Below are positions 43,541 through 50,055 of a stretch of DNA of 64,000 bases, piece by piece (position 1 is the first letter of the stretch; the number at the start of each line of letters is the position of its first letter). Both the position numbers and the translations under genes were made by a program. The notes beneath the pieces are model-generated. The model ran no database searches, had not been told where the DNA came from, and saw only the letters and a list, made by a program, of their open reading frames with translations. Source of the stretch: Bacteroidota bacterium (GTDB lineage Bacteria > Bacteroidota > Ignavibacteria > Palsa-1295); NCBI GenBank assembly GCA_018266755.1, contig JAFDZW010000005.1:372001-436000 (forward strand), given 5' to 3'.

Positions 43541-43570
43541 TTGTATGGTCCCAAAAGTATATTATATTTG
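43541..43570 (+). promoter_or_regulatory. Promoter of the first T9SS surface protein gene
   Basis: TTG at 43541-43543, 19 bases, then TATATTTG at 43563-43570: a full match to the FCB-group -33/-7 consensus. The following bases (CCCCCATCGTGTAG) are nearly repeated after the second copy's promoter. Confidence 0.75.
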
Positions 43571-43684
43571 CCCCCATCGTGTAGCGTTATGTGCTATGCG
43601 GAAACACACGAAGACTTCATCTCTCTTCATCCGCGACAGCACGAACGGGATACTGTAACTTCATCGATCAACCCTAAACTCACT

Positions 43685-46681
43685 ATGAAATCCAACTTTC
43701 GTGTGTGGAAGCGAGGCGTCATGGTGCTTGTCATTACGTCGGTAATCACAGCGCTTTGTGGACTTTCTTCAAACTCTCTTGCTCAGAATGCGGGCCGCGT
43801 GAATAACTATGGCCTGCTAACATTCTCCGGAGGCTTCACCGATGTCACCAGTAGCGGGACTCCCCTCTACCAGTATTGCGGTAGTTACTCATACGCCTTC
43901 GGCAGCAATGTCGGCTCTGTCAGCATGCCGTTCGCATTCAATTATGACAGTGTGAACTACGCCGCCGGATCGCCGCTCTATCTGCGTTGGGATGCGACTA
44001 TGGGCTTCCAGCAGACATACAATTCGAATTACGGCGGTGGTATGACTAACGGCTCGATGCCGAACCAGATTATGATGTGGTCGCAGGCATACAACGGCTT
44101 CATTGGCTGCTATTCACCACGCTCAGGCGTGTACTACCAGACCGTCGGTACCGCGCCGAACCGTGTCTTTATCGTTGAATATGCCAACGTTGCCTTTTAC
44201 TGCTACTATGGGTATAACTATGGCTACTATGTATCCGAAGAGGTGAAGTTCTACGAAACCTCGAACTACATCGACATACTATATTCACAGAACGGCAAGT
44301 ATATGTACTATGCGTACAAAGGCAATATCGGTCTTACCGGCCGTACTTCGCCGAGCTACGTGTATAAAGCAGCACAATCAAGTAGTGATTTCAGCGGATT
44401 CCAAACATGGAGCACGCCGACGTCAAACTATCGCTTTAGCTGCCCGCAGGTTCGGTTTGACCGAAACATGTCGACTACCCCGAAAGTCGTGACCTTCTCG
44501 AACACGATGGTCGGCGACTCATTGACACAATACGTAACGGTTAGTCATGTGGGCACCGAACAGAACCTTACCGTCAGCAGTGCAACAACCGTCGGTTCGG
44601 CAGATTTTTCTGTCGTATCTATCCCCGGTCCCATTGCCCCGGGCGGATCCGATGTGATTGCTTTGCAGTTCAAACCCACAATCACCGGCAACCAGACGGC
44701 GACACTCACGATCGTATCGGACGGCCGAGACAGCGGAACGCAGTCGATCGTACTCAACGGGACAGGACTTGCCCCATTAATTACGGTGGATACGAACATT
44801 CTGTTCAAGAAGACACTCACAAAAATGGGACAATCCCAAATGCGACGTTTGATCATAAAGAATGTCGGCAGTGGTGTCATGTATTGGAATTCGTTTACCT
44901 TTACCGGCATCGATGCTGATCAATACAGCATCGCACAGTATCCGACAAATAATCCGATCGCAATCGGCGATATGGATAGCGTTTTTGTAGCCTACACCCC
45001 GACACGCGAGGGCCGTCATACGTCGACGATGTATATCAACACGAATGCGCTGAACAATCCGTCGGTGCCGATCCAGTTGATCGGGACGGGTATCCTGCCG
45101 CATATCGTGGTGACACCGAGTGTGATCCGGTTCGATTCGACCTACGAAGGCGATACGGCCCGTCAGTCGCTGACGGTGTACAACCCGGGCTCGGACACGC
45201 TGATCATCAAGCAGAACATGCTCGTGAGCAACGACGCCGATTTCGGTATCAACGTGCTCACCGGTACGGATGCGATCATCCCGCCGGATAAGAGCCGCAC
45301 GATGACCGTCACGTTCGTCCCGAAGCAGATGGGTGCACGTCAGGGCCGCTACGTGCTCAAGACGAACATCATCCCGACGTTCGAACAACCGAGCCGCGAT
45401 ACGGCCGGCACCATCACGGTCGATTTCGCCGGGACGGGCGTCCCCTTCGGCGTGCTTGCGCAGAGCATCGGCGGTGCCACCCACGATACCACGATCAAAG
45501 GCACGCAGGTCTGCCGCATGGATACGCTCAGCAATAACGGCGATGCCGATATCATGCTCACCGGCTGGAACATCTCCGGCTCCAATGCTACCGACTTCAC
45601 CGCGTCGGGCATCACCTTCCCCTATCTGTTGAAGGCTCGCTCGTCGGTCGTCGTGAACATCTGTGGTACGCCAAGCGACTTCGGTCTGCGCTCGGCAAAG
45701 CTCACCGTCAACGGCACCTCGAACAAGAAGGCCGTTGCGGTCAACGTGACCCTCAACGTCTACGGCTTGAAGGTCTGCGCCTCGGCCGACCCGTCGGGTC
45801 TCTTCAACGGTGCGTACGTCCTCGAGAATACCGACTCGAGCGAGTGTGTCACCGTGACCAACTGCGGCGAGCTCGCAGCGGTCTACACCGTGAAGCTCTC
45901 GAACAACGCCGATTACTCGGTGACCCCGAGCCAGTCGGCCTCGATCCCGGCAGGCGGCACGACCACCTTCTGCGTGAAGTTCCATCCGGCAGCCTACGGT
46001 GCATCGAACGCATCGCTGACCGTCTCGACGCCGAACGTCAACGACATCGTCGTCCCGATCACGGGTATCGGTGCCTGTGCGAACGTCAGTGCTCCGCAGC
46101 CGGCGATTGCATCGACCGGAAAGGACGGACACCAGCCGTTCTCCGTCACGATCACCAATGCGGGTAACTACACCTGGACCCCGGGGACCGAGACGATCAC
46201 GCCGAACGACGGTGTGTTCGCCATCACCGGCTTCACGCCGGTCACCGGCAACAACGGACAGGTCGTCGTCAACGGCACGTTCAACCCAACCGAGATCAAC
46301 AAGACCTACTCGGCGCAGGTCACCTTCCCGCAGGCCGCTCCGGCTTGCGCGTCGGCTCTGACGATAAACCTCTCGGCACAAAGCACCAGTGCTTCGGTAC
46401 CGACGGTCGTCGAGCAGGCCGGCTTCAGCCTCGGACAGAACTATCCGAATCCGTTCGCTGCTTCGACGAGCTTCCGCTACACCACGCCGACCGAAGCACC
46501 GGTCTCGATCACGATCAGCGACCTTACCGGTCACCTCGTGAGCACGATCGCCAGTGGCCGTGTCAGCGCCGGGGAGCATCTCGTCAGCTTCGATGCTTCC
46601 GAGCTCGCTAGCGGGACATACGTCATCAGCCTCAAGAGCGGAAGTATCTCCCTCGCACGGCAGATCGTCGTCACCAAGTAA
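43685..46681 (+). CDS. T9SS-secreted surface protein with choice-of-anchor D / HYDIN-like repeats, copy 1
   Basis: 998 residues from the ATG at 43685. A signal peptide ends near SNSLA-QNAG. An aromatic, Tyr/Gly/Asn-rich N-terminal domain (about 40-260; repeated YGYY elements) is followed by Ig-like ASPM/HYDIN-type repeats (about 265 on; TPKVVTFSNTMVGDS ... FKPTITGNQTATLTIVS). The protein ends with a type A sorting domain (LGQNYPNPFAASTSF ... ISLARQIVV) that directs export through the type IX system and anchoring to the surface. Probably an adhesin or surface-layer-like protein; no enzyme motif. It is a tandem duplicate of the next gene, followed by a strong terminator. Confidence 0.85.
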   Translation: MKSNFRVWKRGVMVLVITSVITALCGLSSNSLAQNAGRVNNYGLLTFSGGFTDVTSSGTPLYQYCGSYSYAFGSNVGSVSMPFAFNYDSVNYAAGSPLYLRWDATMGFQQTYNSNYGGGMTNGSMPNQIMMWSQAYNGFIGCYSPRSGVYYQTVGTAPNRVFIVEYANVAFYCYYGYNYGYYVSEEVKFYETSNYIDILYSQNGKYMYYAYKGNIGLTGRTSPSYVYKAAQSSSDFSGFQTWSTPTSNYRFSCPQVRFDRNMSTTPKVVTFSNTMVGDSLTQYVTVSHVGTEQNLTVSSATTVGSADFSVVSIPGPIAPGGSDVIALQFKPTITGNQTATLTIVSDGRDSGTQSIVLNGTGLAPLITVDTNILFKKTLTKMGQSQMRRLIIKNVGSGVMYWNSFTFTGIDADQYSIAQYPTNNPIAIGDMDSVFVAYTPTREGRHTSTMYINTNALNNPSVPIQLIGTGILPHIVVTPSVIRFDSTYEGDTARQSLTVYNPGSDTLIIKQNMLVSNDADFGINVLTGTDAIIPPDKSRTMTVTFVPKQMGARQGRYVLKTNIIPTFEQPSRDTAGTITVDFAGTGVPFGVLAQSIGGATHDTTIKGTQVCRMDTLSNNGDADIMLTGWNISGSNATDFTASGITFPYLLKARSSVVVNICGTPSDFGLRSAKLTVNGTSNKKAVAVNVTLNVYGLKVCASADPSGLFNGAYVLENTDSSECVTVTNCGELAAVYTVKLSNNADYSVTPSQSASIPAGGTTTFCVKFHPAAYGASNASLTVSTPNVNDIVVPITGIGACANVSAPQPAIASTGKDGHQPFSVTITNAGNYTWTPGTETITPNDGVFAITGFTPVTGNNGQVVVNGTFNPTEINKTYSAQVTFPQAAPACASALTINLSAQSTSASVPTVVEQAGFSLGQNYPNPFAASTSFRYTTPTEAPVSITISDLTGHLVSTIASGRVSAGEHLVSFDASELASGTYVISLKSGSISLARQIVVTK

Positions 46682-46711
46682 TAAAGCATACTACACAGAG
46701 GTCCTAATTAC
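44887..46711 (+). repeat. Duplicated 1,825-bp block, copy 1
   Basis: From GGAATTCGTTTACC inside the gene to TACTACACAGAGGTCC after the stop. It pairs with 48231-50055 at a constant offset of 3,344 bases, so there is no net insertion or deletion. I count about 18 amino-acid differences over the shared coding part. Confidence 0.9.
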
Positions 46712-46726
46712 ACACACACGGATAGC

Positions 46727-46758
46727 CGGGACGTGTTGCTTCCGGGCAACACGTCCCG
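46727..46758. repeat. 13-bp hairpin after the first T9SS gene
   Basis: CGGGACGTGTTGC (46727-46739) pairs with GCAACACGTCCCG (46746-46758), loop of six bases. No U-run, so it may protect the mRNA end or be a dispersed palindrome rather than a terminator. Confidence 0.6.
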
Positions 46759-46792
46759 AATCCGCTTGATATCCCAGATTTCTTCTATGTAG

Positions 46793-46830
46793 AAATAACC
46801 ACCCGCAATGCGGGTGGTTATTTTTTTTTG
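46793..46830 (+). terminator. Strong Rho-independent terminator
   Basis: 14-bp perfect stem AAATAACCACCCGC/GCGGGTGGTTATTT (46793-46806, 46810-46823), three-base loop, then a run of Ts to 46829. Confidence 0.92.
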
Positions 46831-46859
46831 TTGAGGAAATTTTTTTTGTATTATATTTG
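46831..46859 (+). promoter_or_regulatory. Promoter of the second T9SS surface protein gene
   Basis: TTG 46831-46833, 18 bases, TATATTTG 46852-46859. It abuts the T-run of the preceding terminator. The bases after it (ACCCACTGTGTAG) resemble those after the first copy's promoter. Confidence 0.7.
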
Positions 46860-47025
46860 TACCCACTGTGTAGTTTTGTGTGTGATTGGCGCAATTGGAC
46901 CATCGCTCGTTCGTTGCGTCGGTACTATGAGACCCGGGACATAACTAAACCCCTGAAAGATACTGGCAGCGTACCCGGCATCAGTGTGTGTGTTTCAATT
47001 AACAACCTAAACCAACCAACTCTAT

Positions 47026-50025
47026 ATGAACACCAGGTATATTTACCTACCTCTTGTCATTGGATTGTTGTTACTTGCCTGTCTGGCTCCTACTGTCCAG
47101 ACCGTGCATGCGCAACCTTCCCCGAACGGTTATGCGGCCCGAGTGAACAACTACGGCCTGGTGAGCTTCACCGGTGGTTACACCGAGATCTCGTCGACCG
47201 GTACACCGCTCTACCAGTACTGCGGTTCATACAGCTATTCGTACGGCAATAATGTCGGTTCGATCAGCATGCCGTTTGCATTCAATTATGACAGCGTGAA
47301 CTACGCCGCCGGCTCACCGCTCTATGTTCGGTGGGACAATACGGTTGGTTTCTCGCAGAATTACAATGCCAACTACGATGGTACCGGTATCCAGACCGGC
47401 AGCTTCCCGAACCAGATCATGATCTGGAATCAGGCGTACATGGCATTTCAGGGATGCAGCTACCCGTACTCTGGTGTGTACTATCAAACCGTTGGTACGG
47501 CCCCGAACCGTTCACTCATTGTCGAGTACTATAATATCGCCTATTACGGATATTATGGATACTACTATGGATATACGGTTTCCGAAGAAGTAAAATTGTA
47601 CGAAGCCAATAATAACATTGAGCTTCTGTACTCGTCGAATAATCGCTACATGTACTACTGCTACAAGGGGTCGATCGGCCTCTGCGGCAACTCGTCTCCG
47701 ACATACGTGTATAATGCAGCACAGACCACGACGAGCTACAACTTCGGTACATGGTACACGCCGACAAACAATATCCGCTTTGTCTGCCCGTTGATCAATT
47801 ACAACCGAAACATGTCTGCAACGCCGAAGGTCGTGAACTTCTCGAACACGATGGTTGGCACGCTGTCCACTGCGAACATCACGATCAAGCATGTTGGCAC
47901 CGAGCAGAATCTCGCGATCCAATCGACCACACTAGCCGGTTCGGCAGACTTTTCGATCCTCTCCGCACCGACTTCCCTGTCGCCAGGGCAAAGCGGGACG
48001 CTTACCGTTCAATTCAAGCCGACGATCTTCGGCAGCCAGACCGCGACGCTCACGATCGTATCCAACGGTCGAGACAGTGGAACGCAGTCGATCGTGCTCA
48101 ACGGTACCGGCCTCGCTCCGCTTATTGTCGTGGATACGAATATCCTCTTCAAGAAGACGCTAACCAAGATGGGCCAAGGCTCCACCAAGCGCCTACTCAT
48201 TAGCAATACGGGTACCGGCGCTATGATATGGAATTCGTTTACCTTCACCGGCATCGATGCTGATCAATACAGCATCGCACAGTACCCGACGAATAATCCG
48301 ATTCCCATCGGTACGACCGACAGTGTATTTGTGACCTACACTCCAACCCGCGAGGGGCGTCATACATCGACGATGTACATCAACACGAATGCGCTGAACA
48401 ATCCGTCGGTGCCGATTCAGTTGATCGGTACGGGCATCCTGCCGCATATCGTAGTGACGCCGAGTGTGATCCGGTTCGATTCGACCTACGAAGGCGATAC
48501 AGCCCGTCAGTCGCTGACGGTATATAACCCGGGTTCGGACACGCTGATCATCAAGCAGAACATGCTCGTGAGCAACGACGCCGATTTCAGCATCAACGTG
48601 CTCACCGGTACGGATGCGATCATCCCGCCGGATAAGAGCCGCACGATGACCGTCACGTTCGTCCCGAAGCAGATGGGTGCACGTCAGGGCCGCTACGTGC
48701 TCAAGACGAACATCATCCCGACGTTCGAACAACCGAGCCGCGATACGGCCGGTACCATCACGGTCGATTTCGCCGGTACCGGCGTTCCCTTCGGCGTGCT
48801 GGCTCAGAGCATCGGCGGTGCTACGTACGACACCACGATCAAAGGTACGCAGGTCTGCCGCATGGATACCCTGATGAATAACGGCGACGCCGATATCATG
48901 CTCACCGGCTGGAACATCAGCGGCTCCAACGCTGCTGACTTCTCCGCCTCGGGCATCACCTTCCCCTATCTGTTGAAGGCTCGCTCGTCGGTCGTCGTGA
49001 ACATCTGCGGTACACCGAGCGACTTCGGTCTGCACTCGGCAAAGCTCACCGTCAACGGGACGTCCAACAAGAAGGCCGTCGCCGTCAACGTGACCCTCAA
49101 CGTCTACGGCCTGAAGGTCTGCGCCTCGGCCGATCCGTCGGGTCTCTTCACGGGTGAGTACGTCCTCGAGAATACCGACTCGAGCGAGTGCGTCACCGTG
49201 ACCAACTGCGGCGAACTCGCAGCCGTCTACACCGTGAAGCTCTCGAACAATGCGGATTACTCGGTGACCCCGAGCCAGTCGGCATCGATCCCGGCAGGCG
49301 GCGCGACCACGTTCTGCGTGAAGTTCCATCCGGCAGCCTACGGTGCATCGAACGCATCGCTGACCGTCTCGACGCCGAACGTCAACGACATCGTCGTCCC
49401 GATCACGGGTATCGGTGCATGTGCGAACGTCAGTGCTCCGCAGCCGGCGATTGCACCGACCGGCAAGGACGGACACCAGCCGTTCTCCGTCACGATCACC
49501 AATGCGGGTAACTACACCTGGACCCCGGGGACCGAGACGATCACGCCGAACGACGGTGTGTTCCTGATCACCGGCTTCACGCCGGTCGCCGGCAACAACG
49601 GACAGGTCGTCGTCAACGGCACGTTCAACCCGACCGATCTCAATAAGACCTACTCGGCGCAGGTCACCTTCCCGCAGGCCGCTCCGGCTTGCGCGTCGGC
49701 CCTGACGATCAACCTCTCGGCACAGAGCACCAGTGCGTCGGTACCGACGGTCGTCGAGCAGGCTGGCTTCAGCCTCGGTCAGAACTATCCGAATCCGTTC
49801 GCTGCATCGACGAGCTTCAGCTACACCACGCCGACCGAAGCGCCGGTCTCGATCACGATCTGCGACCTCACCGGTCACCTCGTGAGCACGATCGCTAACG
49901 GCAGAGTCAGCGCCGGTGAGCATCTCGTCAGCTTCGATGCATCCGAGCTCGCTAGCGGTACGTACGTCATCAGCCTCAAGAGCGGAAGTATCTCCCTCGC
50001 ACGGCAGATCGTCGTTACCAAGTAA
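47026..50025 (+). CDS. T9SS-secreted surface protein with choice-of-anchor D / HYDIN-like repeats, copy 2
   Basis: 999 residues. The signal peptide ends near VHA-QPS. Same architecture as the preceding gene: Tyr/Asn-rich N-terminal domain, HYDIN-type Ig repeats, and the same C-terminal sorting domain (LGQNYPNPFAASTSF). The N-terminal third is clearly diverged from copy 1, while the last ~575 residues are nearly identical. The duplicated unit includes the promoter-leader and the 3' untranslated start. Likely displayed on the cell surface; the pair could provide antigenic or binding variation (inference). Confidence 0.85.
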   Translation: MNTRYIYLPLVIGLLLLACLAPTVQTVHAQPSPNGYAARVNNYGLVSFTGGYTEISSTGTPLYQYCGSYSYSYGNNVGSISMPFAFNYDSVNYAAGSPLYVRWDNTVGFSQNYNANYDGTGIQTGSFPNQIMIWNQAYMAFQGCSYPYSGVYYQTVGTAPNRSLIVEYYNIAYYGYYGYYYGYTVSEEVKLYEANNNIELLYSSNNRYMYYCYKGSIGLCGNSSPTYVYNAAQTTTSYNFGTWYTPTNNIRFVCPLINYNRNMSATPKVVNFSNTMVGTLSTANITIKHVGTEQNLAIQSTTLAGSADFSILSAPTSLSPGQSGTLTVQFKPTIFGSQTATLTIVSNGRDSGTQSIVLNGTGLAPLIVVDTNILFKKTLTKMGQGSTKRLLISNTGTGAMIWNSFTFTGIDADQYSIAQYPTNNPIPIGTTDSVFVTYTPTREGRHTSTMYINTNALNNPSVPIQLIGTGILPHIVVTPSVIRFDSTYEGDTARQSLTVYNPGSDTLIIKQNMLVSNDADFSINVLTGTDAIIPPDKSRTMTVTFVPKQMGARQGRYVLKTNIIPTFEQPSRDTAGTITVDFAGTGVPFGVLAQSIGGATYDTTIKGTQVCRMDTLMNNGDADIMLTGWNISGSNAADFSASGITFPYLLKARSSVVVNICGTPSDFGLHSAKLTVNGTSNKKAVAVNVTLNVYGLKVCASADPSGLFTGEYVLENTDSSECVTVTNCGELAAVYTVKLSNNADYSVTPSQSASIPAGGATTFCVKFHPAAYGASNASLTVSTPNVNDIVVPITGIGACANVSAPQPAIAPTGKDGHQPFSVTITNAGNYTWTPGTETITPNDGVFLITGFTPVAGNNGQVVVNGTFNPTDLNKTYSAQVTFPQAAPACASALTINLSAQSTSASVPTVVEQAGFSLGQNYPNPFAASTSFSYTTPTEAPVSITICDLTGHLVSTIANGRVSAGEHLVSFDASELASGTYVISLKSGSISLARQIVVTK

Positions 50026-50055
50026 ACAAGCGTACTACACAGAGGTCCTAATTAC
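48231..50055 (+). repeat. Duplicated 1,825-bp block, copy 2
   Basis: Partner of 44887-46711, at a constant offset of 3,344 bases. High identity stops abruptly upstream, where copies fall to moderate similarity. Confidence 0.9.

Follow-up and report, generated by a model that had tools for sequence, protein, structure and literature searches.

Probable concerted evolution, by gene conversion, of the stalk and sorting part of a type IX-secreted, adhesin-like protein family beneath older heads

In Helicobacter pylori, the paralogous outer-membrane adhesin genes babA/babB and homA/homB have been described as evolving in concert. Their 5' and middle segments are like those found in other strains, whereas their 3' segments resemble the same-strain paralogue, and RecA-dependent intragenomic conversion is given as the cause (review, PMC3960876). 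Amongst substrates of the type IX secretion system (T9SS), rgpA, kgp and hagA of Porphyromonas gingivalis are described as having different N-terminal parts and near-identical shared modules that break assemblies (PMC5266723). Here, a tandem pair of genes, wA and wB, is compared with these systems. The pair lies in a stretch of 64,000 nucleotides from a genome of the Bacteroidota (contig JAFDZW010000005.1, positions 372,001 to 436,000), which as a whole is referred to as the window, and its features are the following, in window coordinates.

43558-43586, + strand: promoter-like element 5' of wA (ATTATATTTG..CCC....GTGTAG), common to wB, recognised by eye
43685-46681, + strand: gene wA, 998 aa, with a signal-peptide-like start, a type I head, an ASH/Ig-like stalk and a T9SS type A sorting domain
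43760-44467, + strand: type I head region of wA, the stretch entered into the head profile (18 heads)
44885-44940, + strand: short patch of near-identity in wA, 5' of the main break, delimited by the positions of differences
45035-46711, + strand: homogenised block of wA, from the synonymous-site break at 45035 to about 30 bp beyond the stop
46442-46672, + strand: T9SS type A sorting domain of wA (TIGR04183, 34.4 bits)
46791-46825, + strand: terminator-like hairpin between wA and wB, a 16-pair stem followed by a T run
46848-46873, + strand: promoter-like element 5' of wB, the counterpart of that of wA, recognised by eye
47026-50025, + strand: gene wB, 999 aa, with the same architecture as wA
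47113-47811, + strand: type I head region of wB, belonging to the type I head set (profile of 18 heads)
48379-50055, + strand: homogenised block of wB, at an offset of 3344 from that of wA
49786-50016, + strand: T9SS type A sorting domain of wB (TIGR04183, 37.1 bits)

Both sorting domains score above the curated cut-off of 23 bits, several ASH / choice-of-anchor-D Ig-like domains were found in both proteins by Pfam search, and the N-terminus of wB is hydrophobic as judged by eye. The genome also encodes the SprA translocon (TIGR04189, 793 bits, C5:273910-278742). Accordingly, wA and wB are probably type IX-secreted surface proteins in which a head at the N-terminus is followed by an Ig-like (ASH) stalk and, at the C-terminus, by the sorting domain. 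The terminator-like hairpin between the genes and the promoter-like element before each of them, which we take to resemble the TAnnTTTG box of the Bacteroidota, suggest that the two may be transcribed separately.

The locus is shared with the congener G001, YihY preceding and Hsp20-DnaK following the pair in gene order. Further downstream, between dnaK and ubiD, the window holds a possible anti-phage cluster (53242-55215, + strand) made up of an HNH-looking ORF, recognised by eye and lacking a Pfam match, a DUF5343 protein with a match to PDC-M34A (2.7e-50) and a Swt1-like HEPN protein with a match to PDC-M34B (3.3e-40). Since the dnaK and ubiD orthologues are only about 90 bp apart in G001, this cluster was apparently inserted in a single lineage.

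With respect to the comparison of wA with wB, the initial annotation had proposed an identical block, 44887-46711 against 48231-50055, with about 18 amino-acid changes. The two stretches are indeed collinear at an offset of 3344 with no indel, but they are near-identical rather than identical (114 of 1825 bases differ, i.e., 93.8% identity), and the changes, though few, amount to 21 residues in the coding part. Identity per 50 bases climbs from roughly 54-90% to roughly 86-100% near 45000 and ends abruptly past the stops, about 30 bp beyond them, so that the block takes in the sorting domain and the start of the 3' region as had been claimed. The break is likewise abrupt, but the best single breakpoint lies slightly further in than the proposed edge, at wA residue 451 (window 45035). 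Amongst codons encoding the same residue in both genes, the proportion that differs falls from 46% to 12% at residue 451, and the likelihood-ratio statistic for this synonymous break (116.6) far exceeds the maximum reached in 5000 permutations (20.9; 0/5000). When silent and replacement changes are counted separately in both halves (NG86), it is the silent sites that carry the step: dS is 1.53 over residues 1-260 and 1.36 over residues 260-400, and 0.21 over residues 401-998. As the 5' values are near saturation, this contrast is a lower bound.

The corresponding dN/dS ratios are about 0.22, 0.20 and 0.10, and front and rear thus both look under purifying selection, which lends no support to the earlier view of an N-terminal half that is free to vary; in addition, the heads look like old types that are found in several genomes. 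The lower ratio in the rear is what would be expected if the two genes were old duplicates whose stalk and sorting parts had stayed similar through strong purifying selection, without any recombination. However, because the step is present at synonymous sites, protein constraint alone is insufficient to explain the rear identity and is refuted as the sole cause. Moreover, the rear of wA and wB shares only 33-70% protein identity with a paralogue from the same genome (a2, see below) and is thus not intrinsically slow, which leaves selection without recombination with a next to negligible probability.

Upstream of the main block of wA, the short near-identical patch at 44885-44940 is followed by a diverged stretch up to ~45000. 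A second breakpoint inside the block is unsupported (p 0.54), and several conversion events within it were therefore rejected. The longest identical run nevertheless comprises 68 codons, longer than expected (p 0.0055), and for this reason one younger conversion patch around 45248-45408 is possible.

The family was sought in 41 genomes, from which 52 rows were assembled. Full-length-type matches came mainly from 13 genomes of one family (G000-G012, with G000 being the window's genome), the others mostly matching the sorting domain. The window's genome has six members in three tandem pairs, namely wA/wB, a2/a1 where contig C5 begins, and e2/e1 at about C5:1.59 Mb. A synonymous step test of 15 within-genome pairs with 1000 permutations each showed a step reached by none of the permutations in seven pairs, and weak steps in G007 C6/C191 (14/1000) and in e1/e2 (8/1000, at residue 218). 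The remaining six pairs, including a1/a2 over the available part, showed no step, and recent conversion is therefore non-universal. Homogenised 3' tracts are nonetheless present in the second tandem pair of the window's genome as well as in pairs of three relatives.

In that second pair, the first 148 bp of contig C6 are identical to the 3' end of a2, including the stop and the 17 bp that follow it, and contig C5 opens with 63 bp that are 95% identical to a2, while the upstream bins of a1/a2 have a DNA identity of 31-61%; the assembly break between C5 and C6 thus falls where the two copies converge. In G007, the contigs of the C6/C191 pair both begin at residue 821 and are 93-100% identical. 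In G008 there are four copies in two tandem pairs located 411 kb apart, and four copy combinations break at residues 484-642, each with a step reached by 0/1000 permutations. One of these steps joins a type I head gene and the neighbouring type II head gene, with a dS of 0.34 over residues 690-850. Over the same residues the copies 411 kb apart are 88-94% identical, and homogenisation is therefore not limited to tandem neighbours. Finally, in G001, C28b and C28c have a dS of 2-3 before residue 681 and of 0 after it, just short of the contig end, and C203 hardly differs from C28b until residue 903 but is diverged thereafter, a second break in the opposite direction. As the flank of C203 carries Hsp20 and DnaK like the region downstream of wB, C203 is taken from gene order as the continuation of C28c, and the G001 tract would then appear to be internal, extending from ~681 to 903 and leaving out the sorting domain. 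This weakens the earlier proposal that conversion serves to keep the anchor constant.

Most of these assemblies are fragmented, with many family copies cut by contig ends, and contigs break inside these genes in several of them, C5/C6 included, as would also be seen if the similarity of wA and wB were due to a false duplication or a chimera. An assembly error, which the initial annotation had itself considered, is very improbable, though, given that the 114 differences are scattered over the block, that the flanks of the two copies are different and their fronts diverged, and that the gene order around the pair is common to G001. In turn, as short-read assemblies tend to break or collapse where copies converge, current counts probably understate how many of these proteins there are and how varied they are.

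A further line of evidence comes from phylogenetic comparison of front and rear. In the front tree (residues 25-350), same-genome clades were rejected in all seven sets. Because this region includes heads that are incomparable between types, the test was repeated with type I heads alone, and a same-genome clade was rejected in three of four sets, the three heads of G008 being the exception (p 0.085). In the rear tree (residues 690-1000), G008, G004 and G005 form clades with a support of 97-100, and so do G011 (three rows) and G003_C16a/b with a support of 89-91 (no star), and head-based groupings were rejected in four of five cases (p 0.24 in the fifth). The number of genome-label changes is 26 in the front tree (shuffled mean 29.0) and 18 in the rear tree (shuffled mean 26.5), and the nearest neighbour resides in the same genome for 8 of 39 genes at residues 25-140 and for 27 of 42 at residues 850-915. 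Over residues 350-690, a1 and a2 are not mutual closest relatives, their union not being rejected (p 0.366). It is thus evident that front trees do not group the genes by genome and that rear trees largely do.

A step like that of wA/wB would also arise in a single pair if a recent whole-gene duplication (dS ~0.2) had been followed by the replacement of one 5' half with that of another paralogue, and in G008, in G001 and in the a-pair the heads on similar rears do differ in type. However, the heads of wA and wB are mutual closest relatives amongst the heads compared (SH-aLRT 99), so that replacement would require a close paralogue, as yet unseen, as its donor. Head replacement also predicts no internal tract, yet the G001 tract appears diverged on both sides, and in G008 both of the pairs 411 kb apart hold copies with similar rears. 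Replacement is therefore considered unlikely.

With the synonymous step, its recurrence in other pairs and the incongruent trees, the gene conversion suggested by the initial annotation is well supported. The best explanation, to which we assign a probability of about 0.83 as a whole, the surface-protein architecture included, is that the stalk and sorting part of a T9SS adhesin-like family evolves in concert through gene conversion, beneath heads that are older. Old paralogues would recombine inside a genome, presumably by ordinary homologous (RecA-type) conversion, so that the stalk and sorting part would be overwritten repeatedly and remain alike within the genome, and conversion would halt before heads that are too diverged or unrelated, which would hence persist as older types. 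The limits of the tracts may reflect where homology remains, there being none in the heads and none past the gene end, where the flanks differ. Exchange limited by homology would have tracts stop near the stop codons, as seen in the window pair, the a-pair and G007, and vary at their 5' edges, which lie at residues 452, 484-642, 681 and about 690. Remaining homology thus most simply explains the tract positions without selection on the anchor, and selection for an exchangeable rear part is possible. A more tentative and on balance doubtful extension is that of a head-exchange system, in which the near-identical stalk and sorting parts of tandem and distant loci, in some cases beneath unrelated heads, serve as long homology arms for trading, losing or amplifying heads. 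If so, the genomes would hold a standing, recombining repertoire of surface heads, and homogenisation would be kept since it permits head turnover and not for a constant anchor.

Third-position GC climbs at the edge of the homogenised part, from 0.54 to 0.81 in wA, and also does so in a2 (G000:C5:2342-5173). Over 690 gene-bins the effect is 0.048 overall (48 of 1000 shuffles were as high) and 0.012 without G000, and the slope of third-position GC on identity, although higher than in all 1000 shuffles, is confounded by base composition. GC-biased conversion is therefore not claimed, as the effect rests on the window's genome and is unclear in others.

The heads of the family belong to type I (18 rows), type II (18 rows) or type III (2 rows), and all four type I heads of the window's genome sit in the window pair and the a-pair. 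The type I head comprises about 235 residues and matches no Pfam or NCBIfam family, and no lectin family was reported in wA or wB by Pfam search. The profile of 18 type I heads does match residues 22-219 of the Flavobacterium johnsoniae chain 8gl6_D, deposited as RemA (E 5.5e-20). By profile similarity, the window's head is thus a relative of the domain at the N-terminus of a RemA-family protein from Flavobacterium, and for this reason a surface-adhesin role is the best guess for wA and wB, whose heads would then bind something outside the cell. Gliding is not indicated, as the GldJ model had no match in the window's genome; the GldM model had none either, and likewise gave none in the controls. 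An AlphaFold2 model of the head from four sequences reached a mean pLDDT of 43.3, with residues 1-240 below 50. The type I profile also has matches deep within other large ORFs of the unrelated records L086, L127, L128 and L074 (E 3.9e-6 to 3.3e-12), and the domain therefore extends beyond this family.

Between type I and type II, the probability from profile comparison was 0.1 out of 100, i.e., no detectable relation, so that near-identical rear parts bear heads that are unrelated to each other by this measure. The type II profile has weak Reelin and mannanase matches only amongst PDB chains (E 0.039 and up) and nothing firm in Pfam; a resemblance to a MAM or cleaved-adhesin domain might be presumed, but was unsupported by the searches. 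In G003 and G011 the stalk is the same but carries a type III head (L018:4064-4714, L138:1511-2176), one of the two having a weak ThuA match (E 0.0027).

Word searches of a limited literature collection returned no report of concerted evolution in such a T9SS family. Its rear part would evolve in concert within genomes across an uncultured bacterial family, beneath three unrelated-looking head types, and such loci offer a natural test of whether paralogue homology is retained for the exchange of exposed domains. Like Flavobacterium johnsoniae RemA and RemZ, wA and wB are T9SS type A substrates; an N-terminal domain homologous to theirs is present in RemA, the likeness being confined to the head. 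With rgpA, kgp and hagA (PMC5266723) they have in common that T9SS substrates with differing fronts share near-identical parts. However, what the P. gingivalis proteins share, behind their protease domains, is DUF2436 and repeated cleaved adhesin domains, neither of which had a Pfam match in wA or wB, and the present family shares an ASH/Ig-like stalk and a sorting domain. In pattern the family resembles babA/babB and homA/homB (PMC3960876), with an abrupt step in silent divergence in wA/wB and with rears that group by genome and fronts that do not. In contrast to babA/babB, the family belongs to another protein class with another secretion route, is compared between genera of an uncultured family and not between strains of one species, and has near-identical rears under unrelated-looking heads and exchange across 411 kb. 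What is added over the known cases is the recurrence across an uncultured family, distant as well as tandem exchange, and near-identical rears beneath heads that look unrelated.
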